DNA of 64,000 bases from the NCBI GenBank assembly GCA_023251075.1, contig JAHEZM010000018.1:1-64000 (forward strand), written 5' to 3'. Position 1 is the stretch's first letter; every line of letters starts with the position of its first letter. The notes beneath the pieces were generated by a model, which was given only the letters and a program-made list of their open reading frames with translations, was not told the DNA's origin and ran no database searches. Shown here in pieces: positions 5,603 through 64,000 of the stretch. Made by a program: the position numbers and the translations under genes. The stretch comes from Flavobacteriales bacterium (GTDB lineage Bacteria; Bacteroidota; Bacteroidia; Flavobacteriales_C; GCA-002722245).

Positions 5603-8026
5603 TTAATAGATACTTGGGTATTTGGAAGGATTACTTTCTCTCATCATTTTGTAAACTTTATCGAAAACTGTTTCAACATTTGGTTTCGAAAAATAATTTC
5701 CATCAGAACCGTACGCCGGACGGTGATCTTGCGCAGCAATAGTTTTAGGTTCAGAGTCTAAATAATAATAGGCTTCTTGTTCTTCTATAATTTGTTGCAA
5801 CATGAAACCGGTAGCTCCTCCTTGCACATCTTCATCCATCACAATTAATCGATTGGTTTTTTTAACCGATTCTAGAATTTTCTTTCCTGTATCAAAAGGC
5901 AGCAACGTTTGAATATCTATAATTTCAAGGTGAATATCGAATTCTTTTAACTGTTCGGCCGCTTCAATAGCAATGCTCACGCATGAACCGTACGTTACAA
6001 GAGTGAGATCTTTTCCTTCTACAATTACTTCGGGAACTCCTAAAGGAACTTTAAATTCACCCAAGTTGGCAGGTAACGTTTCTTTTCTTCTGTAAGCGAG
6101 TAAAGGCTCAATTACCAAACCTGGATCATAAGCACTCAACAAAGTATTGTACATTCCTGCAGCTTGAGTCATGTTGCGCGGAACACAAATGTAAATTCCT
6201 CTTAAAGAATTAATGATCATACCTAGCGGAGATCCAGAATGCCATATACCTTCAAAACGATGTCCTCTGGTTCGAATGATTAAAGGTGCTTTTTGTCCGC
6301 CTTTAGTTCGATAATGCAATGAAGCTAAATCATCGCTAATGGTCATTAAACCATAAATCAAATAATCGAGATATTGAATTTCGGCAATCGGACGAAGACC
6401 TCTGATGGCCATTCCCACACCTTTACCCAGTATAGTAGCTTCTCTGATCCCGGTATCACTTACACGTGGTTCACCATATTTTTTTTGAAGTCCTTCCAAT
6501 CCTTGATTCACTCCACCAATTTTTCCGGAATCTTCTCCAAAAATCACCAGTTTAGGTTCTTTTGCTAATAAAGCATCGAAGTTATCGCGAATGATAATTC
6601 TTCCGTCTACTACAGGAGAATCTTCATTGTACAAAGGTTTTATTTCTTTTACATTGATGGCTGAATGTGCATCATGACTATACAACAATGAATTGTATCG
6701 ATCGAAGTTGGCAACATTTTCTTGGGTAAGCCAATCGGAAAGCATTTTTTTCTCATCGCTTTCTTCTCTGCTTACTTCGCGTAAAACTTTTTTAGCGGCA
6801 ATAGTTAAATCTTTTACGTTGGTATCGATACCATTTAACAAGCGCTGTTTTATTTGAAGAATATGTTCTTTGTTTTCACTTTTAAGAGCAAGTTGATCGA
6901 ATAAGCGACAAAGGTTTCTTACTTCATTTTTGATGGGTGTAAAGTAGGCTTTCCATGCGGCATCTTTCCCTGCTTTTACGGCAGCAACCGATTCGTCTTC
7001 AATTTTTTTAAGTTCTTCTTCACTGGCAAAACCTTGTGATAGAATCCATTCTTTAAATTTTTTATTACAATCGAATTCTTTTTCCCAGGCTAATCTTTCT
7101 TCCGATTTATATCTTTCGTGTGATCCTGAGGTGGAGTGTCCTTGGGGTTGAGTTAATTCTTCTACATGTACTAAAACAGGAACATGTTTTTCACGTGCGA
7201 GTTCAGCAGCTTTTTTGTAGGTGAGGCATAAAGCGGCATAATCCCAGCCTTTAACAGTTATGATCTCCCAACCTTTAAATTTTTCATCTCTTTGGAAACC
7301 AGCTAAAGCCCTTGAAATACTTTCTTTGGTGGTTTGTAATTTGGTTGGCACTGAAATTCCGTGGCCATCATCCCAAACCGATAAAACCACAGGAACCTGC
7401 AAAACACCCATGGCATTAAATGCTTCGAAGAAAATTCCTTCAGAAGTACTTGCATCTCCAATGGTACAAAAAACGACTTCATTTCCTAAATTGGAAAGAG
7501 TGGTGTATTGATGTAATTCTTTATTTTTTCGGAATAATTTTGATGCTAAACCCAAACCTACAGTTCTTGGTATTTGCGCTGCAGTAGGAGATAGATCGGT
7601 AGTGGTAATTTTTAATTTAGTCATGTCCTTCCATCCACCATCATCGTTGATGAATCGTGTGGTGAAATGACTATTCATTTGTCGGCCAGCTGAATGCGGT
7701 TCTGCTTCAATGCTGGTGTGCGAGTATAATTGTGCGAAGAGTTGTTGGTGGGTTAATTCACCAATGGCGTACATAATGGTTTGATCCCGGTAGTATCCAC
7801 TTCGGTAATCTCCATTTTTAAATTGTTTGGAAAGAGCAATTTGAGCTACTTCTTTTCCATCTCCAAAAATTCCGAATTTTGCTTTGCCGGTGAGTACTTC
7901 TTTTCGTCCTAGTAAGCTGGCTTCTCTGCTTTCACAGGCTAAGCGATAATCAGCCAATACAGCTTCTTTGAATTCAGCGAGTGATAGTTCTTTGGTACTG
8001 TTATTTCCTTTTTCGGGAGAAGTCAT
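5603..8026 (-). CDS. Fused 2-oxoacid dehydrogenase E1 (alpha + beta)
   Basis: The 807-residue protein joins both E1 subunits of a thiamine-diphosphate 2-oxoacid dehydrogenase. The alpha part (about 1-360) has the ThDP motif from GDASTSEG to DDGHGIS. The beta part (about 470-807) has 'VFGEDSGKIGGVNQGL', 'REATILGKGVGMAIRGLRP' and the late 'VMDEDVQGGATGFM' region. Enzymes of this fused form are common in Bacteroidota and are usually annotated as branched-chain 2-oxoacid or pyruvate dehydrogenase E1; the substrate cannot be decided here. The lipoyl E2 and E3 partners are not in the window. The gene leads a two-gene unit with murQ. The 195 bp upstream (8027-8221) shows no gene. Confidence 0.9.
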   Translation of the reverse strand: MTSPEKGNNSTKELSLAEFKEAVLADYRLACESREASLLGRKEVLTGKAKFGIFGDGKEVAQIALSKQFKNGDYRSGYYRDQTIMYAIGELTHQQLFAQLYSHTSIEAEPHSAGRQMNSHFTTRFINDDGGWKDMTKLKITTTDLSPTAAQIPRTVGLGLASKLFRKNKELHQYTTLSNLGNEVVFCTIGDASTSEGIFFEAFNAMGVLQVPVVLSVWDDGHGISVPTKLQTTKESISRALAGFQRDEKFKGWEIITVKGWDYAALCLTYKKAAELAREKHVPVLVHVEELTQPQGHSTSGSHERYKSEERLAWEKEFDCNKKFKEWILSQGFASEEELKKIEDESVAAVKAGKDAAWKAYFTPIKNEVRNLCRLFDQLALKSENKEHILQIKQRLLNGIDTNVKDLTIAAKKVLREVSREESDEKKMLSDWLTQENVANFDRYNSLLYSHDAHSAINVKEIKPLYNEDSPVVDGRIIIRDNFDALLAKEPKLVIFGEDSGKIGGVNQGLEGLQKKYGEPRVSDTGIREATILGKGVGMAIRGLRPIAEIQYLDYLIYGLMTISDDLASLHYRTKGGQKAPLIIRTRGHRFEGIWHSGSPLGMIINSLRGIYICVPRNMTQAAGMYNTLLSAYDPGLVIEPLLAYRRKETLPANLGEFKVPLGVPEVIVEGKDLTLVTYGSCVSIAIEAAEQLKEFDIHLEIIDIQTLLPFDTGKKILESVKKTNRLIVMDEDVQGGATGFMLQQIIEEQEAYYYLDSEPKTIAAQDHRPAYGSDGNYFSKPNVETVFDKVYKMMRESNPSKYPSIY

Positions 8027-10302: not shown

Positions 10303-11544
10303 TTAATTTTTAATTAAAACAGTGGTGGTGTTTTTTTCGTTTTGCGAGATGCGAATGCTATAAAAACCCGATGATAAATTTGCGATAGAGAAATGTTTGT
10401 TTTTCCCCTCAACAACTTTTTCCCCCAAGCCATTGTATATTGTCCATTGAAGCGGTAAGTCATTGGTGCTTACTATCGTGATTTCACTGTTCGAGGGATT
10501 AGGATAAACTGATATGGTTGTATTGTTGTTCACTGCATTTATTTCTAAAGCTTCGGAAACGTAGGTATTTAAAGAATCTAAAATATTAACATTACCTGAA
10601 AAGCAATCTCCACCCAATTCCCAAATCATATATCCACCCGCATTATCTGCAGCATATTTTATTTTCTTCTTAAAGGTAGGTAAGCCATTGTAATAAACCG
10701 GATGCTGATTGGAAGTAGTTACCATGTCGTTGTGCAAAGGGTCTTGCGATGCGTAAGAAGGGTTGGTGTAAATACTACATAAGTCGAGATTAAATTGCCA
10801 ATAAGTATTTTGAGGCGACATAGGGAATTCAACTCCATAGAAAGCCAATCCTCCAACTACTTGATGGGGGTTCATTCCTCTGGAAACCCAATAATCAATA
10901 TCGTCGGTAAAGCCTGAATAAGGAAATTGATCACTGGGTTGATTGTAGTTCCAGCTACCCACTCCGCCATACGACATGGTGGTAATAAAATCCATTTTTT
11001 GTAAAGTAAGGTCGCTAATTGCTAAGGCATAACTATTATTCCATCCCAAAGCCAATGCAGCACTTATTTCTAATCCGGCTGCATGAACACTGTCGGCAGT
11101 TTCCTGGGCGAAGAGATTGAAATCAGAAAGTTGTAGAGCGTATCCTTCTAAATCTAAATCAATACCATCCAGGTTATGCAGTCGCACATAATCCATCATT
11201 TTATGAATGAAATTGCTTCTCTGATTTTGATCGATTAATTTTTTATAAATAGCAGTGTCGGCACCCCAGCTGTAACTGCCTCCACCGGCAAAAGATGGAA
11301 TTACTTTACACCCCTGATTATGGGCGATATTAACTAATCCATTAATGTTTTGAGAGAAAGTGATAGTGCCGGCAGTATCAGGATTAACGAAGGCTACAAA
11401 AACATGAGTGAGTTTTGATAAATCCATATTACCAATGTCGTTCCATCGGTAATCGGGTATATATCCTGTTTTTTTGAATGTTTGAGCCTGTCCTTCAAAG
11501 CATACTAATAAACCAATAAAAATGAGTAATAGTTTTTTTATCAT
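10303..11544 (-). CDS. Secreted glycoside hydrolase family 18 protein with T9SS signal
   Basis: The 413-residue protein has a signal peptide (cut near residue 20), a GH18 TIM-barrel (about 24-330) and a T9SS sorting domain (about 340-413, starting 'ISVYPNPSNSEI'). The catalytic DxxDxDxE motif is intact as DGIDLDLE, with Glu133 as the acid. GH18 enzymes cleave chitin or related beta-1,4-GlcNAc chains; some members only bind. It lies 52 bp downstream of an esterase gene on the same strand, with a hairpin terminator between them, so it is probably read through at a lower level. De-acetylation plus GlcNAc-chain cleavage would fit together. Confidence 0.88.
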   Translation of the reverse strand: MIKKLLLIFIGLLVCFEGQAQTFKKTGYIPDYRWNDIGNMDLSKLTHVFVAFVNPDTAGTITFSQNINGLVNIAHNQGCKVIPSFAGGGSYSWGADTAIYKKLIDQNQRSNFIHKMMDYVRLHNLDGIDLDLEGYALQLSDFNLFAQETADSVHAAGLEISAALALGWNNSYALAISDLTLQKMDFITTMSYGGVGSWNYNQPSDQFPYSGFTDDIDYWVSRGMNPHQVVGGLAFYGVEFPMSPQNTYWQFNLDLCSIYTNPSYASQDPLHNDMVTTSNQHPVYYNGLPTFKKKIKYAADNAGGYMIWELGGDCFSGNVNILDSLNTYVSEALEINAVNNNTTISVYPNPSNSEITIVSTNDLPLQWTIYNGLGEKVVEGKNKHFSIANLSSGFYSIRISQNEKNTTTVLIKN

Positions 11545-11556
11545 GTTTCTATATAC

Positions 11557-11590
11557 GAAAAAAGCAAGCCGGAGTTTAGGCCGACTTGCT
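11557..11590 (-). terminator. Hairpin terminator between esterase and GH18 genes
   Basis: The 10-bp stem (11563-11572 with 11581-11590, one G-U pair, 8-base loop) is followed on the minus strand by six T residues. It sits between the stop of the SGNH esterase and the start of the GH18 gene and may lower expression of the latter. Confidence 0.75.
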
Positions 11591-11596
11591 GAATCC

Positions 11597-13033
11597 TTAC
11601 ATTTTCACAAATGAAGTGGTAGATATTTTATTTTCCGTTGTAACAACAACAAAGTATATCCCTGCATTTAAATTTTCAATAGAACAATTTACATTGTTAT
11701 TTTCCATAATCACTTCCCCCATTGTGTTTACTATTTTGTAAGAAGCGTTGCTGGGTAGATTATTGATAGAAATTTGATTTTGTGCAGGATTGGGGAAAAT
11801 TTTGATTAACGAATTGAATTCAATACTCGTTCCTGTACTTGTGCCACAATCACTTTCGCCCCAGTTAATATTCATCGCATTAATTTTTTGAAGCAACACT
11901 GCGCTCATTTCTTGATGCGAACATTTTGAAGGATGCCATGCATCACCATAACCACAATCATCAGAAGGATTACCAGTCCATTTTTCAGCAGTATAAGGCA
12001 GTTCACAAGTGGTAATATGACTGCTGCCAAAATGCGCCACTATGTTGCTGCCTATAGTTCTTAGGCGTGTCAATTGATGTGTCCATGTTGGCCATGAGTC
12101 TGATTTAGAGTTTCCGAAGCAAATAACAATATTCACACAAGGATGATAGCCTCTGATTTTATTGATGAAGGCAATATAAGTAGATTGAAAAGCAGCATCA
12201 TCTAAAGCGTATTGAGAACCGCCTTCCTCTTGTGCCATGTCGTTTGTTCCTAAATGAATTACTACTACATCGGGATGAAAGGTAGAGTGATCGTAAGCGG
12301 GAGACGAATTGTCTTCTAAGGTATTATCGTAATTTAAAGGCAAGGTATTGTTCATAGAGCCGGTATTGTTTCTGTACAAACCTCTGCCTGATGTTGCGGT
12401 AACGCGGTATTCAGCACCTAGTGCCCGAGCAGTAATGGCCCCCCATGCGTAATAATTGTCTTCATTGGCCGCTACATAATTTCCATTCACCATTGATGCA
12501 TTTCCGGTACTGTATTGTGAAAGATTACCAAATCCGCAAGTCCAGGAGTCACCAATAAATTCAATTTTCTTATTGGTTTTGGCAGGAAGATCTAAAAGGC
12601 TTTGATTGTTACCTATTATCGTAAAACCTTTGAAAGAACTTTTGCCTGATGCCCCTTCCGTAATTTTCATAATTTCAACCGTATGGTCGGCAGCCGTTAA
12701 TCCACTGGCCAGAGTGTAAGTATTTAATCCCGGTATCATAGCCAACTGTTCGGTAGCAATTAGTCCGTCGATAAATACTTTGTAGTAATTGGTGGTTTGA
12801 GCAGTACCTGTTCCGTAATCGTAAATGGTAGCACTAATTCCTGTACCATTGAATTTTGCTTTTATAGAAACACCTGGGTAGATGTAAGTGGGTTGTAAGG
12901 GATTTACAAAATCAATTCTACCTGAGTATTGAATTTTGGTATCATTGGCAGTAATGGTGGGTGCTTGTGCCTGCACTAAATTTGTGCTTACCAATAGTGC
13001 GATACTCATCATAAGGGTTATTTTTGTTTTCAT
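11597..13033 (-). CDS. Secreted CE2-like SGNH esterase with T9SS signal
   Basis: I start at ATG 13033 because it begins a clean signal peptide (MKTKITLMMSIALLVSTNLVQAQ); the frame is open 9 codons further. The 478-residue product has an N-terminal beta-sandwich (about 25-140), an SGNH hydrolase domain and a T9SS domain ('IKIFPNPAQN'). Block I is FIGDSWTCGFG (Ser163), block III HLGTND (Asn264), block V DAWH (His367). The two-domain order is that of carbohydrate esterase family 2, which removes acetyl groups from polysaccharides. A TAnnTTTG promoter (13058-13065) and a repeated site shared with the other esterase gene (13122-13161) lie upstream. Confidence 0.85.
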   Translation of the reverse strand: MKTKITLMMSIALLVSTNLVQAQAPTITANDTKIQYSGRIDFVNPLQPTYIYPGVSIKAKFNGTGISATIYDYGTGTAQTTNYYKVFIDGLIATEQLAMIPGLNTYTLASGLTAADHTVEIMKITEGASGKSSFKGFTIIGNNQSLLDLPAKTNKKIEFIGDSWTCGFGNLSQYSTGNASMVNGNYVAANEDNYYAWGAITARALGAEYRVTATSGRGLYRNNTGSMNNTLPLNYDNTLEDNSSPAYDHSTFHPDVVVIHLGTNDMAQEEGGSQYALDDAAFQSTYIAFINKIRGYHPCVNIVICFGNSKSDSWPTWTHQLTRLRTIGSNIVAHFGSSHITTCELPYTAEKWTGNPSDDCGYGDAWHPSKCSHQEMSAVLLQKINAMNINWGESDCGTSTGTSIEFNSLIKIFPNPAQNQISINNLPSNASYKIVNTMGEVIMENNNVNCSIENLNAGIYFVVVTTENKISTTSFVKM

Positions 13034-13057: not shown

Positions 13058-13065
13058 CAAAGTTA
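13058..13065 (-). promoter_or_regulatory. Putative -7 promoter element of the esterase gene
   Basis: The minus strand reads TAACTTTG, an exact match to the Bacteroidota TAnnTTTG element, 24 bases before the ATG at 13033. No TTTG is present at the -33 position, which would fit a promoter that needs an activator. Confidence 0.55.
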
Positions 13066-13121: not shown

Positions 13122-13161
13122 AAATACAAAAATGCAAAGTCAATTTCATAAAATGCAAAGT
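13122..13161. promoter_or_regulatory. Paired direct-repeat operator upstream of esterase and AraC genes
   Basis: The 12-mer AAAATGCAAAGT occurs at 13129-13140 and at 13150-13161, 21 bp apart, which is two helical turns. The 19 bases 13122-13140 recur exactly, inverted, at 14313-14331 upstream of the second esterase gene. AraC-type regulators often bind two direct half-sites about 21 bp apart. The site lies between the divergent esterase (11597-13033) and regulator (13204-14292) genes, so it could serve both. Confidence 0.6.
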
Positions 13162-13203
13162 GTAGATAGTGTTATTATGAACTACTTTAATTAAATTTCA
13201 ACT

Positions 13204-14292
13204 GTGCTACTCAAAAATAAATTAATATGGATTGCTCTCGGTACTACTTTCTTTGTACTTATTGCTTTGTTTTTTAGTTTGAATTTTTCTACTTTTTCTA
13301 TTCTTCCCTATTCTAAATCTTCTCAATTTAATTATCAATCTTTTCGAGAATCGATTGATAGTGGTTATAGCGAAGCAAAAATTACTACCGATAATAAAGG
13401 AGCTTTACATTTGAATTATAAATTATGTAAGAAGTTAGAAGAACCATTTACAGGGGTTTATTTTTCTAAAAAAGATTCTTTACCTCCTTTTTTCGATGTG
13501 AGTACTTTTAATACTTTGCGTATTCATTTGAAATCAATTAAGGCAAAGCGAATTCCGCTTACTATTACTTTTGATTATGATGGATTTAGTTCTAAACAGA
13601 AGGAATTTCAATATGTTCCTTATACTGCTTTGGTAGATTATAAAGGGGAGGGAGACTATGAAATTTCTCTGAATGATTTTAAAGAACAAAGTTGGTGGTA
13701 CCGTTATCATCACAAAACTCCTGAGGATTTTAAAAACATAGATTTTTCCCGCGCCAATTTCTTTATTATAGGCTCTTGTCAGTTGTTAGGTGCAGGCGGA
13801 GAAGATGAAATTGAGGTGTCGTCTTTAGATTTTGTAAATAACAATGGTAAATGGTATTTACTTATAGCGATAATCCTTATTGTATTCTATAGTATTTTAG
13901 TGATCTATTATTACATGCGTCAAAAGAAACAAGTGTTTATTCCTTATATAGCCAATGAAGTGAATGACGCTCCGGTAAATAAATTAGATAAAGTAATGCA
14001 ATACATTGCTGTAAATTATTCTAATCCTGAGTTAGATCAAGAAGCTCTACAAAGGGAGTTGGGCATTTCTACTCGTGAGATAGGTACTTTGTTAAAAGAA
14101 AAACTAAATACTTCTTTTAAAAATTATTTGAATCAAATTCGTCTGGCCGAAGTAAAGCGTTTGCTGAAAGAAAGTGATTTACCCATATCAGATATAGCTT
14201 ATCGCGCTGGCTACAACAATATTTCTCATTTCAACAGAGTTTTTAAAACGGAGGTAGGGGTGAGTCCAAAACAATTTCGCGACGAAAAGTAA
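13204..14292 (+). CDS. Membrane-bound AraC-type regulator with extracytoplasmic sensor domain
   Basis: The 362-residue protein starts at GTG 13204; the nearby ATG at 13226 is in another frame. It has a membrane helix at about 7-25, an extracytoplasmic domain (about 30-215), a second helix at about 217-238 and a cytoplasmic AraC-type DNA-binding domain (about 260-362, with 'PISDIAYRAGYNNISHFNRV'). The middle domain has alternating strands, aromatic clusters (WWYRYHH) and 'IDFSRANFFIIG', which resembles galactose-binding-like carbohydrate modules. I infer that it senses a glycan outside the inner membrane and acts directly on DNA. It sits between two esterase genes whose upstream regions share a repeated site. 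Confidence 0.82.
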   Translation: MLLKNKLIWIALGTTFFVLIALFFSLNFSTFSILPYSKSSQFNYQSFRESIDSGYSEAKITTDNKGALHLNYKLCKKLEEPFTGVYFSKKDSLPPFFDVSTFNTLRIHLKSIKAKRIPLTITFDYDGFSSKQKEFQYVPYTALVDYKGEGDYEISLNDFKEQSWWYRYHHKTPEDFKNIDFSRANFFIIGSCQLLGAGGEDEIEVSSLDFVNNNGKWYLLIAIILIVFYSILVIYYYMRQKKQVFIPYIANEVNDAPVNKLDKVMQYIAVNYSNPELDQEALQRELGISTREIGTLLKEKLNTSFKNYLNQIRLAEVKRLLKESDLPISDIAYRAGYNNISHFNRVFKTEVGVSPKQFRDEK

Positions 14293-14331
14293 TTTGCATT
14301 CCTTGTTTTTTCACTTTGCATTTTTGTATTT
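14293..14331. promoter_or_regulatory. Paired operator upstream of the second esterase gene
   Basis: TTTGCATT occurs at 14293-14300 and again at 14315-14322 (22 bp apart). Bases 14313-14331 are the exact reverse complement of 13122-13140. Seen from each esterase gene, the site has the same orientation and lies 88 and 99 bases before the respective ATG. A TATCTTGG at 14398-14405, 25 bases before ATG 14431, is a near match to TAnnTTTG. Confidence 0.6.
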
Positions 14332-14430
14332 TGCGAATAATAGCAAATACATCAACTACTTTTCATGGTAAACAAATTCACCTTTCAGAATCACCGATAT
14401 CTTGGTTGTATAATTTAAAAACTACTTACC

Positions 14431-15783
14431 ATGAAAACAATTAAACAACTACTGCAACGAATTCTTTTCGTTTTTTTATTTCTTACTTTTTACAATTCTT
14501 CATTTTCTAAAGTGACCATCTCTTTAGATGATCCTAATATTTCTTACGATGGTGTTTTTTATCCGGTGATTACTTCCAATAAGGTTCAATTCAATCGTCA
14601 TCTTTCTTCTATGATTAACAATTGGGAATCGGGTATTGCCGGTTCATGGATCAATCAATGGGTAATTACACAAACGGGGGTTCGCATTAGATTTAAAACA
14701 GCTAGTCCTACGATTGATTTAAAATTCGGAAAAAGAATAGGAGGAGGTACAATAGGTTCATTGCCTTCAACTGGTTTTACGGTTTTTGTAAATGGTGTAC
14801 AAACAGCAACTTTCTCTGATACTGTTTTCACTGTCAATAACCCCAATCCGGGTACATCCAATACTTTTGAAGTAACCTTGCCTAATTTATGGGCGGTTGA
14901 TTTTACCGGAATGCAAATCGATGATACTTATGCTTTAGAATCTCCGGGTGCTTTGAATAAACCTGTTTATGTTTCTATTGGGAATTCGATAACGCATGGT
15001 ACCGGACAGTATGTCTCTGCAGCTAAAGGTTACCCGTTTTTGCTGGCAAAAAAGATGGATTGGGATTTACATAATATAGCGGTAGCAGGATCTACGTTGG
15101 GTTGGGCAATTGCGTTGAATATTAAAGGTAAACATGTCGACTTCATAACAGTTAAAATTGGTTTCAACGATTGGAAATATACCAGCGATCCTTTATCGGT
15201 GAAAAAAGCGGAATACGGAAAATTGATTGATTCTTTAAGAGCGTATCAACCTACGGCAAGAATATTTTGTATTACTCCTATTTATACTGCTGATAATGAT
15301 GGTTCGGCGCCTTATACTATTGCTGATTTTAGAGCGATGGTGGCGGAAGTGGTTACTGAAAAAATGTTGAACGATAATAATTTATGTTTGATTAATGGCG
15401 CTGAAATTTCTGATGCTACGATGTTGGCTCCAGGTGATCCAACCCATTTAAGTGAATATGGTGCATCAAAATTAGCCGATGCATTGTACCTGAAAATAAA
15501 TGATTGTGGAAGTTCTTCTTCGGTTTCTACTTTGCAAACGAACTCACGAATTCAAATAAAACAATGGAGTAATAATCAATTGCAAATCACATCAGAAGTA
15601 TCGGCAGTTTTCGATTTAAGTGTTTTTTCAATGGAAGGAAAATTGATGTATAAAAAATCAATTAATGTTGTGAAAGGAGAAAATACAATTACAAGCAATG
15701 AAGATTTATTAAGCAATGGTTTGTACCTGGTGAAAATTCAAAATCAAAATGATTCTTCTTCCACGAAAGTTTGGGTAAAGTAA
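14431..15783 (+). CDS. Secreted two-domain SGNH esterase with T9SS-type C-terminus
   Basis: The 450-residue protein has a signal peptide (about 1-26), a beta-sandwich (about 28-170), an SGNH hydrolase domain (about 178-355) and a C-terminal domain of the T9SS type ('LSVFSMEGKLMYKKSI... NGLYLVKI'), although its opening lacks the usual YPNP. Block I is IGNSITHG (Ser186, with Asn instead of Asp before Ser), block III IGFND (Asn246), block V DPTH (His339). Asn at this place is also seen in other active SGNH esterases, so activity is likely. It probably de-acetylates a polysaccharide, like its partner at 11597-13033, and shares an upstream operator with it. Confidence 0.82.
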   Translation: MKTIKQLLQRILFVFLFLTFYNSSFSKVTISLDDPNISYDGVFYPVITSNKVQFNRHLSSMINNWESGIAGSWINQWVITQTGVRIRFKTASPTIDLKFGKRIGGGTIGSLPSTGFTVFVNGVQTATFSDTVFTVNNPNPGTSNTFEVTLPNLWAVDFTGMQIDDTYALESPGALNKPVYVSIGNSITHGTGQYVSAAKGYPFLLAKKMDWDLHNIAVAGSTLGWAIALNIKGKHVDFITVKIGFNDWKYTSDPLSVKKAEYGKLIDSLRAYQPTARIFCITPIYTADNDGSAPYTIADFRAMVAEVVTEKMLNDNNLCLINGAEISDATMLAPGDPTHLSEYGASKLADALYLKINDCGSSSSVSTLQTNSRIQIKQWSNNQLQITSEVSAVFDLSVFSMEGKLMYKKSINVVKGENTITSNEDLLSNGLYLVKIQNQNDSSSTKVWVK

Positions 15784-15792
15784 ATCTAAATT

Positions 15793-16977
15793 TTATCGGA
15801 TATTTGAAATGGCTTGTAGAATAATTTTACAAGCCTTTTCTATTTCCAATGCTGAAATAGTAAGTGGGGGTGCAATTCGCATAGAGTGATCATTGAATAA
15901 AAACCAATCTACAAAAACGCCTAATTCTAAACAGGCATGATTGACTGCAAAATTAAATTCTTTCGATTCGAACTCTACAGCCAGGAACAAACCTTTTCCG
16001 CGAATCGATTTTATTTTAGGATGTACTAAATATTTTCTGAATAATTCTTCTTTAGCGGCAATATCTTCTAATAATTTTTCTTCTTCGATCACTTCAATAC
16101 AAGCCAAACTGGCGGCACAGGAAACTGGATGTCCACCGAAAGTAGTAATGTGTCCTAAAATCGGACTCTCCATCAAACTACTCATTATTTCCTTCGAACT
16201 GATAAAGGCACCAATAGGCATTCCTCCACCCATTCCTTTGGCACAAACCAAAATATCGGGAACTACATTGTAATGTTCAAAAGCAAACATTTTCCCACTT
16301 CTGCCAAAGCCACTTTGTACTTCATCAAAAACCAAAAGTGTTCCTGTTTCATCACATTTTTTCCGCAAAGCATTTAAATAGTTTTTTTCGGGAAGAATGA
16401 TGCCTGCTTCCCCTTGAATGGGTTCTATGAAAACGGCTGCTGTTTGAGTGCTGATCTGTTCTAAATCTTCAAGGTTATTGAAGGTGATTGTGCGTGTCAT
16501 TGGTGTTAGCGGACGAAATGCATTTTTGTATTTCTCCGATCCAATAATACTTAATGCTCCTGTTGTGCTTCCGTGATAAGCATTTTTGCAAGATATTATT
16601 TCACTGCGTTGAGTATATCTCCTACTTAGTTTTAAAGCCCCTTCAATGGCTTCGCTTCCTGAATTAACGAAATAAATATTGTTTAAAGAAGAAGGTAAAA
16701 GTTGTGCTATTTTTTCGGCTAGTTTTGTTTGCGGACTTTGAACTAATTCTCCATAAACCATTAAGTGCATGAATTTTTCTGCCTGTTTTTTTACGGCTTC
16801 TACCACACGAGGATGACAATGCCCAACATTGCTTACAGAAATTCCAGAAATTAAATCGATGTACTCTTTCCCATCGGGAGAGTATAGTATACTTCCTTGA
16901 GCTTTTTCAATTTCAATTTGTAGAGGGAAAGGGGAGGTTTGCGCCTGATACTGCAGAAATAATTGTCGGTTATTCAT
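15793..16977 (-). CDS. Class III aminotransferase (ornithine/acetylornithine type)
   Basis: This pyridoxal-phosphate enzyme has 394 residues from ATG 16977; the frame is open 7 codons further but that start overlaps the upstream gene more. The PLP lysine is Lys247 in 'VCAKGMGGGMPIG'; 'FDEVQSGFGRSG' holds the Asp that binds the ring nitrogen (Asp218), and 'VNSGSEAIEGALKL' binds the phosphate. The family transfers the omega-amino group of ornithine, acetylornithine or similar compounds to 2-oxoglutarate. No arginine or proline genes are near, so the substrate is open. The start overlaps the stop of the upstream barrel gene by 8 bp, so the two are likely coupled. Confidence 0.85.
   Translation of the reverse strand: MNNRQLFLQYQAQTSPFPLQIEIEKAQGSILYSPDGKEYIDLISGISVSNVGHCHPRVVEAVKKQAEKFMHLMVYGELVQSPQTKLAEKIAQLLPSSLNNIYFVNSGSEAIEGALKLSRRYTQRSEIISCKNAYHGSTTGALSIIGSEKYKNAFRPLTPMTRTITFNNLEDLEQISTQTAAVFIEPIQGEAGIILPEKNYLNALRKKCDETGTLLVFDEVQSGFGRSGKMFAFEHYNVVPDILVCAKGMGGGMPIGAFISSKEIMSSLMESPILGHITTFGGHPVSCAASLACIEVIEEEKLLEDIAAKEELFRKYLVHPKIKSIRGKGLFLAVEFESKEFNFAVNHACLELGVFVDWFLFNDHSMRIAPPLTISALEIEKACKIILQAISNIR
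15811..15835 (+). terminator. Terminator-like hairpin inside the 3' end of the opposing gene
   Basis: GGCTTGTA (15811-15818) pairs with TACAAGCC (15828-15835) and is followed by TTTTCT on the plus strand. It would end transcription of the esterase gene that stops at 15783, yet it lies within the last codons of the convergent aminotransferase gene. Confidence 0.5.
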
Positions 16978-32665: not shown

Positions 32666-32697
32666 ACAAAGCCTGCCAGAAAACTGGCAGGCTTTGT
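32666..32697. terminator. Bidirectional terminator between beta-helix gene and tRNA-Pro
   Basis: A perfect 14-bp stem, ACAAAGCCTGCCAG (32666-32679) with CTGGCAGGCTTTGT (32684-32697), with a 4-base loop, lies between the convergent beta-helix gene and tRNA-Pro. The T-rich flank on both strands fits use in both directions. Confidence 0.85.
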
Positions 32698-32700
32698 TTG

Positions 32701-32775
32701 TCGGGGCGGCAGGATTCGAACCTGCGACCTCATGGTCCCAAACCATGCGCGATAACCGGACTACGCTACGCCCCG
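32701..32775 (-). tRNA. tRNA-Pro (UGG anticodon)
   Basis: The minus strand folds as a 75-nt tRNA. The acceptor CGGGGCG pairs with CGCCCCG, the anticodon loop is TTTGGGA (anticodon TGG), the stem is CATGG/CCATG, and the T-arm is GCAGGTTCGAATCCTGC. The discriminator base is A. CCA is not encoded. A strong terminator follows at 32666-32697. Confidence 0.95.
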
Positions 32776-32883
32776 AAAGAACTTTTTAATGGGACGGCAA
32801 ATTTAGGATAAAAATTTATCTATCCAATTAAATCACTCATAAAATTATTTCTTTTATACGAAAAAGCAGCAAAAGCTTGTCGC

Positions 32884-32902
32884 GTCCCGATTTTGATCGG
32901 GA
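32884..32902. repeat. Short palindromic hairpin (TCCCGAT...ATCGGGA)
   Basis: GTCCCGATTTTGATCGGGA gives a perfect 7-bp stem with a 4-base loop. It is directly joined to the 5' side of the tRNA-Pro fragment. Related palindromes are at 28151-28170 inside the riboswitch and at 30681-30706 after metE. Confidence 0.6.
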
Positions 32903-32932
32903 AGGTCGCAGGTTCGAATCCTGCCGCCCCGA
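32903..32932 (+). pseudogene. 3' fragment of a tRNA-Pro gene
   Basis: These 30 bases are identical to the last 30 bases of the intact tRNA-Pro at 32701-32775 but on the other strand; the match extends a few bases past the 3' end. They hold the T-arm and the 3' acceptor strand. No 5' acceptor strand, D-arm or anticodon arm can be read upstream, where the palindrome 32884-32902 and AT-rich sequence lie. It is therefore a truncated or captured tRNA end and not a working gene. A hairpin terminator follows it. Confidence 0.7.
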
Positions 32933-32933
32933 C

Positions 32934-32965
32934 AAAAGCCTTCGATTTTCATTGAGGGCTTTTTT
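32934..32965. terminator. Terminator after the tRNA-Pro fragment
   Basis: AAAAGCC (32934-32940) pairs with GGCTTTT (32957-32963) and ends in a run of seven T residues. It also overlaps the stop codon of the opposing gene at 32964 and could serve both directions. Confidence 0.55.
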
Positions 32966-34746: not shown

Positions 34747-36081
34747 ATGCAAAGTTCAATGATGAAAAATGTTTTGATAATACTGATGATTTTATTGGGT
34801 TTTACCCTTGCGCCATCTGTTGCTTATGCGCAACCTGATTTGAAGCAGGAAGCTAAATTGAAAAAACAACAATTGAAAGAGCAGGAAAAGGCAAAAAAAG
34901 AAGCAGCTCAATTGAAAAAGAAGGAATATGCTGCTCAGTTGAAAATGAAAAAGGAAGCTGAGGCTCTTAAAAAACAACAAATTGAAGAACAGGAAGCTGT
35001 AGCAGCAGAAGCCAAAGAAAAAGCAGAAGCCAAAAAGAAAGCTGATTTAGAGCTTGAAATGGAGCGAATTAAAAAAGAACAAGCCGCCAAAGATGCCAAG
35101 GAAAAAGCCGAGCAAGCAGCTGCAGCATATAAAGAGAAACAATTGAAAGCCGAAAAAGCAAAGCAAGAAAAAATAAAAGCAAAGCAAGAAAAAGAGAAAG
35201 CTAAAATTTCGGGAATTGAGAATAAGTATAAAGCGCGTATTGATAACCAAGATAAGCAAAGTAAGCTGGATGAGGAACGTTTTAAAAAAGAAAAAGAGAA
35301 GATCGATAAGCAAATTAGTGATGCGGAAAGAAGAGCTAAAGAAAGAATGGACAAGCTGAAAGAATATGATGAGGCAAAAAATAAAATTCAGGATGATTTA
35401 AATAAAACTTCTTTAGAAAAAAATAAAAAGGAAACAGAAGAGGAGGCTCGTATTCGCAAAGAAAAAGAATTAAAAAAGATCAATAAGAAGATTGAAAAAG
35501 AAAAAGAATTAATTGATAATAAAAAGAGAAGTGCTGAAGAGCAAGTTAAATTGGATGAGATTAAGAAGAAGGAGTTAGAGCTTAAAGAAAAAGTAACGAA
35601 GTTTAAAGAAGAGTCGAAATTAAAAGCTAAAAAAGAAGAAGAAGAATATCAACGACAGTTAGAAGACGAGAAAGAGAAAATTCGTGTGCGTATTGAAGCG
35701 CAACGTTTTCGTGATGAACAAAAAGCCAAAGAAGCAGAATTGAAAGCTAAATTTGAGGCCGAGGAAAAAGCTAAAAAAGATGCAGAGGCAAAAGCAAAAG
35801 CGGATGCAGAGGCAGAAGCTAAACGAATTGAAGATTTGAAAAAAGCGGAAGAAGAGGCAAGAAAACAGGCAGAGGAAGAACGTAAAAAGAAATATGAAGA
35901 AGAAATAAAAAAGGCAGAATCTGGCTTAAGCGCTCAGGAATTAAAATTAAAACATTTGCAGGAGGCTGAAGAAAAGGCCCGTTTAGAGCGTGAGAAAAAA
36001 CATAAAGAGAAGGAGGAAAAGGAATTGCAAAAATTAAAACTGGAAGAAGAAAAACTGAAGAAGGAATCAGAAACAAAATAA
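34747..36081 (+). CDS. Exported lysine/glutamate-rich helical protein
   Basis: The 444-residue protein starts with a signal peptide (cleaved near VAYAQ, residue 29; ATGs at 34759 and 34762 are also possible starts). Everything after it is one run of K, E, A, Q and L in patterns such as EEEARKQAEEERKKKYEEE, with hardly any Gly or Pro. This predicts a very long coiled coil or single alpha-helix across the periplasm. Such low-complexity sequences resemble TolA and similar spacers by composition only, so no function can be assigned. It leads a likely operon with the SRPBCC and TfoX-like genes. Confidence 0.75.
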   Translation: MQSSMMKNVLIILMILLGFTLAPSVAYAQPDLKQEAKLKKQQLKEQEKAKKEAAQLKKKEYAAQLKMKKEAEALKKQQIEEQEAVAAEAKEKAEAKKKADLELEMERIKKEQAAKDAKEKAEQAAAAYKEKQLKAEKAKQEKIKAKQEKEKAKISGIENKYKARIDNQDKQSKLDEERFKKEKEKIDKQISDAERRAKERMDKLKEYDEAKNKIQDDLNKTSLEKNKKETEEEARIRKEKELKKINKKIEKEKELIDNKKRSAEEQVKLDEIKKKELELKEKVTKFKEESKLKAKKEEEEYQRQLEDEKEKIRVRIEAQRFRDEQKAKEAELKAKFEAEEKAKKDAEAKAKADAEAEAKRIEDLKKAEEEARKQAEEERKKKYEEEIKKAESGLSAQELKLKHLQEAEEKARLEREKKHKEKEEKELQKLKLEEEKLKKESETK

Positions 36082-62785: not shown

Positions 62786-64000
62786 TTGAAAGAAAAAGTA
62801 TTAACATATTTAGGACATAAACCTACTTCCGGACAAGCGGAATTGATTGATCAGTTACTAACTTTTTTTACTATACCTATGCCTCGTCCGGTTTTCGTGA
62901 TGCGTGGTTATGCAGGAACAGGCAAAACTTCTCTGGTAAGTGCTTTCGTGAAATCGATGCGGGGAGGAACCTGCGTTTTGTTGGCACCCACAGGTAGGGC
63001 TGCTAAGGTGTTTGGAACGTATTCGGGTCGACCGGCTTATACCATTCACAAAAAGATTTATCAAAATTCAGTGAAGGATGGCGTAGCACAGTTCTCACTC
63101 ACTAAAAACTTGCATAAGGATACTGTTTTCTTCGTTGATGAAGCCTCTATGATTTCTAATTCGGGTGGGCTAGGGGGCTCTTTTGTGAGTAAAGGAAGGA
63201 GTTTATTGGATGATCTTTTGGAATTTGTTTTTTCAGGTGAAAATTGCAGGGTAGTTTTTATTGGTGATACCGCTCAGTTGCCTCCGGTGGGAATGAGTTT
63301 GAGTGTAGCTCTCGATCCTAAATATTTAAAAGCACAATGGGGTTTGAATGTATTTGATTATGAAATGACAGAGGTGGTGCGGCAAAGCGCTCAATCAGGA
63401 ATATTATATAACGCTACTAAAATTCGCGATCAGTTGAAATTGAAAACTCCTGGTTATCCGGCAATAGAACTCAAAGATTTTCCTGATGTAGCGGTGATCA
63501 GTAGTTATGAAGTAGAAGAATTGCTGAATGATGCGTATTCAAAATCAGGAGTAGAAAAAGCGATTGTAATTACGCGATCCAATAAAATGGCCAATAATTT
63601 CAACCAACAAATTCGATATCGTATTCGTTGGCAGGAAGATGAAATTTCTTCGGGCGATTATTTGATGGTAGTGAAAAATAATTATTTCTGGCTGGGTGCC
63701 GATTCAAAAGCCGGATTCATTGCCAACGGTGATATGATTTATGTGGAGAGGGTGATGAAATACGAAGAAAAATTTGGATTTCGTTTTGTGAATTTGCAAG
63801 TGAAAATGGTAGATTACCCTGATGAACCAGAAATGGAAGTGAAGATTATTTTAGATTCCTTGATGACTGATGCACCATCGCTTACCAAAGAACAAAGCAA
63901 AAATTTGTCGGAAGCCGTTTATGGTCATTACATGATGGAGAATAACACCAAAGCAAAGATTCGTGAAGCGGTAAAAAAAGATCCTTACTATAATGCGCTC
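62786..64000 (+). CDS. RecD-like superfamily 1 DNA helicase (partial)
   Basis: The frame starts at TTG 62786 (an in-frame stop lies at 62774) and leaves the window at the right edge after 405 residues. Walker A is GYAGTGKTS (41-49), Walker B 'FFVDEASMIS', motif III 'IGDTAQLPPVG', and 'VVRQS' follows. These mark a superfamily 1B helicase of the RecD/Pif1 kind; similar stand-alone proteins are common in Bacteroidota. The C-terminal 'UvrD_C_2' part is missing only because the window ends. It is divergent from DUF3822. Confidence 0.88.
   Translation, partial: MKEKVLTYLGHKPTSGQAELIDQLLTFFTIPMPRPVFVMRGYAGTGKTSLVSAFVKSMRGGTCVLLAPTGRAAKVFGTYSGRPAYTIHKKIYQNSVKDGVAQFSLTKNLHKDTVFFVDEASMISNSGGLGGSFVSKGRSLLDDLLEFVFSGENCRVVFIGDTAQLPPVGMSLSVALDPKYLKAQWGLNVFDYEMTEVVRQSAQSGILYNATKIRDQLKLKTPGYPAIELKDFPDVAVISSYEVEELLNDAYSKSGVEKAIVITRSNKMANNFNQQIRYRIRWQEDEISSGDYLMVVKNNYFWLGADSKAGFIANGDMIYVERVMKYEEKFGFRFVNLQVKMVDYPDEPEMEVKIILDSLMTDAPSLTKEQSKNLSEAVYGHYMMENNTKAKIREAVKKDPYYNAL

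Follow-up and report, generated by a model that had tools for sequence, protein, structure and literature searches.

Two copies of a 19-bp sequence bracket the gene of a membrane-bound AraC-type regulator, here called REG, and they are probably its operators (probability about 0.82): judged from the sequence, REG would be a one-component transmembrane AraC activator that senses its signal in the periplasm, controls two esterase genes and regulates its own gene. Observed directly were the sites themselves and the facts that they are unique and conserved, keep phase with the -7 boxes and co-occur with REG. The window, that is, the whole stretch of DNA analysed, comprises 64,000 nucleotides. The features discussed below are as follows.

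11563..11590, minus strand: intrinsic terminator after the CE2 gene (-16.7 kcal/mol, z -3.8), between CE2 and a GH18 gene (10303-11544)
11597..13033, minus strand: CE2-family carbohydrate esterase, with CE2_N (PF17996, 2.2e-23), GDSL (PF13472) and a type IX secretion tail (PF18962)
13058..13065, minus strand: CE2 promoter, -7 box TAACTTTG; the gap to operator 1 is 64 bp, and there is no -33 TTG box
13130..13161, plus strand: putative operator 1, located between the divergent CE2 and REG genes; half-sites AAATGCAAAGT at 13130-13140 and 13151-13161 with a spacing of 21 bp
13192..13199, plus strand: putative -7 box TAAATTTC of the REG gene, 30 bp from operator 1, assigned from its position
13204..14292, plus strand: REG, membrane-bound AraC-type regulator, 362 aa, GTG start; layout from hydropathy, AF2 and Foldseek: TM ~6-26, periplasmic CBM11-like beta-sandwich ~30-211, TM ~215-239, AraC HTH 260-360
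14291..14323, minus strand: putative operator 2, half-sites AAATGCAAAGT at 14313-14323 and GAATGCAAATT at 14291-14301, 22 bp apart
14398..14405, plus strand: EST2 promoter, -7 box TATCTTGG, 25 nt before the ATG at 14431; the gap to operator 2 is 74 bp, and there is no -33 TTG box
14431..15783, plus strand: EST2, second SGNH/GDSL esterase (PF13472, 1.3e-15), motifs GNSITHG and DPTHLS, type IX secretion tail
15811..15835, plus strand: terminator-like hairpin after EST2

Paired half-sites flank the regulator gene

The 19-bp inverted repeat reported in the preliminary description is present: the 19-mer AAATACAAAAATGCAAAGT at 13122-13140 returns as an exact inverted copy at 14313-14331. Elsewhere in the window the only inverted 19-mer was one tRNA-associated repeat, and when the window was simulated 60 times with an order-2 Markov model, a single run gave any inverted 19-mer within 1.5 kb. 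Each copy forms one half of a ACTTTGCATT half-site pair, the second partial core that had been described lying at the distance given for it, 21 bp on one side (13131/13152) and 22 bp on the other (14293/14315). The 19 bp make up a single half-site in its extended form, ACTTTGCATTnnnTGTAttT; it is the pair that is the functional unit. The pattern AATGCAAA-N13/14-AATGCAAA was absent from all 100 shuffles of the window.

The preliminary description had proposed a search of this and related genomes for the paired motif. Using mismatch patterns for the whole-genome site search, we found two matches to the exact pair in the 3.28-Mb genome, at operators 1 and 2, and no match to the reversed pattern used as a control; pairs were also conserved at the orthologous loci of all five genomes. 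Operator 2 lies upstream of EST2 and directly 3' of REG, its far half-site overlapping the regulator stop codon, and the site has the same orientation toward each esterase gene, as had been noted. Across 26 half-sites TTTGC is nearly invariant, and a second box, TG(T/A), follows about 10 bp beyond it, its TG being invariant in the 13 distal copies. Two boxes about 10 bp apart are the layout that would be expected for an AraC monomer placing its two HTHs in successive major grooves.

REG combines a predicted sensor and an AraC domain in one chain

The gene between the sites encodes a membrane-bound AraC-type protein, as proposed earlier, with two hydrophobic spans and matches to HTH_18 (E 4.1e-23, 81.9 bits, cut-off 33.6) and HTH_AraC (41.1 bits, cut-off 26.6). 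Its C-terminal AraC-type double HTH domain and the tandem direct half-sites about 21 bp apart are features of the AraC/XylS family, and Foldseek matched the HTH region to the DNA-binding domains of AraT and YesN. The HTH, the two spans and a predicted beta-sandwich between them are thus carried on a single kinase-less chain; Pfam searches up to E 1 returned the AraC HTH as the sole domain, with neither a histidine kinase nor a receiver domain.

AlphaFold2 modelled the whole of REG with a pLDDT of 72 and its periplasmic part as a beta-sandwich (pLDDT 71, pTM 0.75), these models (mean pLDDT ~71-72) being built from five sequences only. The best solved Foldseek match of the sensor (model pLDDT 71) was 6r31, the CBM11 of Clostridium thermocellum (E 1.4e-5, TM 0.60/0.65, 13% identity), a structure solved with mixed-linkage glucan, and CBM4, CBM30 and CBM86 were among the lower matches. 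CBM11 is a module that binds beta-glucan, and the resemblance of the sensor to it is a prediction from the fold; Pfam gave no CBM match. Binding of a sugar by this modelled domain is likely rather than certain, because the non-sugar proteins NDUFAF1/CIA30 and FlaA1 have the same fold. The earlier label 'glycan sensor' stands as far as the predicted CBM11-like fold and the gene content carry it.

The flanking esterases and their neighbours

The left gene starts from an ATG at 13033 on the minus strand and joins a CE2_N domain (82.8 bits, cut-off 27.9) to an SGNH catalytic domain with the Ser/His motifs GDSWTCG and DAWHPS. In EST2, Pfam detected GDSL and sorting domains only, and no CE2_N. The nearest NCBIfam models were AxeC2 (acetylxylan esterase/glucomannan deacetylase) for the CE2 protein and AxeA1 (acetylxylan esterase) for EST2, both far below their curated cut-offs. 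Deacetylation of plant structural polysaccharides is a known activity of CE2 enzymes (PMC2661963).

It had been suggested that GH18 belongs to the circuit through the operon. This had to be given up, since a strong intrinsic terminator (11590-11563) separates CE2 from GH18 and GH18 adjoins CE2 in none of the four related cassettes. Instead, the cassette of genome G006 is surrounded by GH9, GH16 and a second CE2 gene, and the neighbourhood in relatives includes GH9, GH16, a second CE2 and an expansin gene, a setting in which acetylated plant hemicellulose or beta-glucan is a more probable target than chitin. Judged on ORF size, no SusC was seen among the neighbours listed, the largest of which (807 aa) is by appearance a dehydrogenase.

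Conservation of the cassette and promoter phasing

The CE2-REG-EST2 cassette was found in all five genomes of the genus searched, with identical gene order and orientation and with REG orthologues 50-80% identical to that of the window. The pair between CE2 and REG has a spacing of 21 in every genome, and that 3' of REG a spacing of 21 or 22; the exact 19-bp identity is not conserved in relatives, while the half-site pairs and their spacing are.

The TAnnTTTG-like boxes noticed previously were recovered as TAACTTTG, ending 24 nt before the CE2 ATG, and TATCTTGG, 25 nt before the EST2 ATG. We measured the gap from the near edge of each operator to the -7 box (TAnnTTTG or TAnCTTGG/C), taking the -7 consensus and position (-12 to -5) from a flavobacterial transcription-start map (PMC9723704). 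Across the five genomes the gaps were 64, 64, 74, 74 and 75 bp for CE2 and 74, 74, 75, 75 and 75 bp for EST2, so that all ten esterase promoters fall at 64 or 74-75 bp, two classes one helical turn apart. The REG promoter had gaps of 30, 30, 31 and 31 bp in the four genomes scored by script and a matching TATCTTGC box in the fifth. Helical phase is therefore kept in the esterase and the REG promoters.

No TT(T)G -33 element was present in any of the ten esterase promoters, and a TTTG-N19 -33 element occurred in three of the five REG promoters, those of G000 and G008 having no recognisable -33 box. From this distribution we infer that the esterase promoters would need an activator and that REG would have basal expression. 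The REG -7 box lies 4 nt before the GTG in the window (13192-13207) and 4-7 nt before the start codon in relatives, which suggests that the REG mRNA may be leaderless or nearly so.

Proposed mechanism and the sign of regulation

The best reading of these sequences is that REG controls hemicellulose deacetylation, acting like a hybrid two-component system (HTCS) that lacks the kinase. Its periplasmic CBM11-like domain would sense an oligosaccharide, probably derived from acetylated beta-glucan, glucomannan or xylan, and its cytoplasmic AraC domain would bind, as a dimer, the two direct half-sites spaced 21/22 bp. Operator 1 would serve two divergent promoters, activating the CE2 gene from about -77 to -108 relative to the transcription start and, next to the -33 region of the REG promoter, mediating autoregulation; EST2 would be activated by operator 2 from about -87 to -119. 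DNA binding, dimerisation, the sign of regulation and the ligand of REG are what we infer here. Against this reading stand the long distance of the operators upstream of the esterase promoters, an operator orientation that is not the same for the esterase promoters as for that of REG, the missing -33 box of the REG promoters in G000 and G008, and two G007 CE2 genes that have no site upstream.

The sign of regulation is not readable from the sequence, and REG could bind the sites and instead repress the esterase genes, with release on ligand binding; a loop is conceivable, as the operators flank REG about 1.2 kb apart. We consider this unlikely, since the operators do not cover the -7 box but end 64-75 bp before it, the -33 box missing from all ten esterase promoters fits activation, and the AraC-domain HTCS relatives are described as transcriptional activators (review PMC10766802).

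Sites elsewhere and paralogous regulators

As a control we scanned 149 genomes of the class for the half-site pair. Pairs with 0-1 mismatch were confined to genomes with a REG orthologue or cassette, and the 145 other genomes of the class had none. At 2-3 mismatches, pairs do occur in other class genomes, often as low-complexity repeats. By position weight matrix (PWM), no pair scored at least 24 in 1.6 Mb of Markov sequence, and nine of the ten cassette pairs reached at least 26, the weakest being the EST2 pair of G008 (21.6).

Several matches were set aside. The window match at 35154-35185 (PWM 29.1) is a lysine-rich coding repeat and not an operator: a lysine/glutamate-rich coiled-coil gene at 34747-36081 contains an internal 19-bp direct repeat (35154/35175) that mimics an operator by chance. 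The match on G007:C36 and many class matches at three mismatches are low-complexity repeats, and the weak pair of G000:C15/G008:C62 is within a 341-codon open frame. Separately, at 32697-32936 of the window, the end of a tRNA-Pro gene (32700-32775, minus strand) recurs in inverted form at ~32903-32936; this may be an integration scar.

With two mismatches allowed, further pairs were found in the five genomes. In relatives, three genes for secreted proteins have the site 100-115 bp ahead of them, oriented as at the esterase promoters. A second CE2 gene in G006 has a site, found by the PWM scan only, with a -7 box at a gap of 65; a 756-aa CE2-type protein gene in G009 has a site with a box-like TAGCTTTA at a gap of 65 (by eye); and a CHU_C-type secreted protein gene in G006, which adjoins an expansin gene, has a site with TAACTTCG at a gap of 75 (by eye). 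Ten CE2_N genes were counted in the genus and eight have a site upstream, namely the five of the cassettes, the second CE2 of G006, one on G009:C80 and one on G009:C17 beside a REG paralogue; two of the three CE2 genes of G007 are without one. The circuit described earlier as self-contained is so in this genome, as far as tested, but not in the relatives, where the site is also found at unlinked genes. The conserved cassette, the half-site pairs, the phasing and the near-absence elsewhere do agree with the earlier proposal that the sites are shared operators tied to REG and the two esterase genes.

The REG paralogue at locus L052 (G009:C17), 30% identical and with little HTH similarity, bears on whether REG alone recognizes these sites. 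Between this paralogue and another CE2 gene, at 6477-6529, there are three AAATGCAAAGT-like half-sites in 21-bp steps. Because a protein with so little HTH similarity has a very similar motif, which counts against REG as the sole binder, another regulator could bind similar DNA.

GH9 genes of four relatives (L058, L081, L082, L083) have AAATGTAAAG pairs, spaced 21/22 bp, upstream of the ATG; their orientation is opposite to that at the esterase promoters, and three of the four sit 19-20 bp from a -7-like box. They look real in three to four genomes, but in view of this opposite orientation and a variant sequence we keep them as candidates only, possibly for another regulator.

Taken further, the L052 half-sites and the GH9 pairs could mean that the sites belong to a paralogous AraC-type regulator encoded elsewhere and that REG is a bystander. 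We regard this as improbable, more so than repression by REG: only REG adjoins both sites in all five genomes, the tree places the L052 protein in a group with none of the listed matches from G000 or G008, and the other paralogue groups examined have half-sites of their own, GTCCGGT (22 bp, five of five genomes) and TTGATTTTTTCTG.

Least probable by far is that the exact 19-bp inverted repeats, which bracket a 1.17-kb segment with one gene, are a recombination or mobile-element feature such as an insertion scar, given that the 19-bp identity is lost in relatives while the half-site pairs and spacing are kept (the ground on which an invertible segment was rejected), that gene order and orientation are the same in all five genomes, and that single copies of these sites stand before unlinked genes.

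Several paralogous loci were of interest in themselves. In one group (L043-L047; G000:C42 ~63,500-63,800 and its orthologues), a REG paralogue is preceded by GTCCGGT half-sites with a spacing of 22 bp, and the start of the proximal half-site is 49 bp from a TAnnTTTG -7 box in five of five genomes. This promoter would drive an RNA of ~65 nt consisting of a conserved unpaired GTAAGAAAAGTAGATTGAATCCCC, then a hairpin varying in sequence with its pairing conserved, then a T run. The RNA had no Rfam match, and exact second copies of the leader are present in G006:C23 and G007:C143. In a second group (L041 7189-8304, L049 1747-2214), TTGATTTTTTCTG direct repeats 22 bp apart, of a sequence that differs from the cassette motif, lie 3' of the L049 paralogue, and L041 has a weaker pair like that of L049 with a single full TTGATTTTTTCTG copy. 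At L042 (G000:C44, 7780-8970) two REG paralogues stand in tandem, the first of them preceded by a TAAAATGCA pair with a spacing of 21 bp. Since each of these paralogue groups in the genus has half-sites of its own, such switches may form a small family.

Comparison with known regulators

Escherichia coli AraC, RhaS and related activators are cytosolic and have a cupin-type sugar-binding domain; they combine a double HTH with tandem half-sites separated by about two helical turns and with an autoregulated divergent promoter. The double-HTH AraC domain, the tandem half-sites and the divergent promoter are common to the REG system, whereas REG has a predicted periplasmic CBM-like domain and membrane spans. 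ToxR and CadC have an N-terminal winged HTH and one span; in REG, by contrast, the AraC domain is C-terminal and two spans are predicted. With the ToxR/CadC/TcpP type REG shares a sensor, a membrane span and a DNA-binding domain in a single chain (PMC10269533). One-component transmembrane regulators are reported to be common and enriched in Bacteroidota, and a text search of the survey in question found no mention of AraC or HTH_18 (PMC10269533).

Membrane-anchored regulators of Bacteroides are described as falling into two types, SusR-like proteins and HTCSs, and the AraC domains of HTCSs use 21-bp direct repeats (PMC3878776). REG resembles the former as membrane-anchored glycan regulators of Bacteroidota with direct-repeat operators, but SusR-like site centres are 67 or 77 bp apart against 21/22 bp here (PMC3878776). 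The likeness to HTCSs extends to a membrane protein with a periplasmic sensor and a C-terminal AraC domain, direct repeats of ~21 bp and linked extracellular polysaccharide enzymes (PMC3878776), and the REG sites are direct-repeat operators of that kind near polysaccharide genes. However, REG, at 362 aa, has no histidine kinase or receiver, which places it outside the HTCSs; its sensor is predicted to be CBM11-like, against the COG3292-type of most HTCSs; and no SusC/SusD pair was seen in the cassette. As far as the sequence tells, REG is a kinase-less single chain with HTCS-like output and operator design.

A search of the literature available to us returned no described membrane AraC one-component glycan regulator in Bacteroidota. 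We see about an even chance that REG and its paralogues form a set of kinase-less HTCS-like proteins, each with a CBM-like periplasmic sensor, a span, an AraC domain and its own 21/22-bp direct-repeat operators by secreted glycan genes, one of these operators driving a small RNA; such a set would add a third type to the membrane-anchored glycan regulators of Bacteroidota, next to the SusR-like and HTCS types.

What is known of the control of extracellular polysaccharide enzymes in Bacteroidota comes mainly from ECF/anti-sigma, SusR-like and HTCS systems. A membrane switch made of one protein, its sensor predicted to be a carbohydrate module and its operators placed almost to the base pair relative to the -7 box, would be simple to test and usable as a biosensor, and the half-site pair followed by 64 or 74-75 bp to the -7 box offers a rule for finding targets in uncultured relatives. 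Together, REG and its flanking operators are likely a compact switch for degrading acetylated plant fibre.
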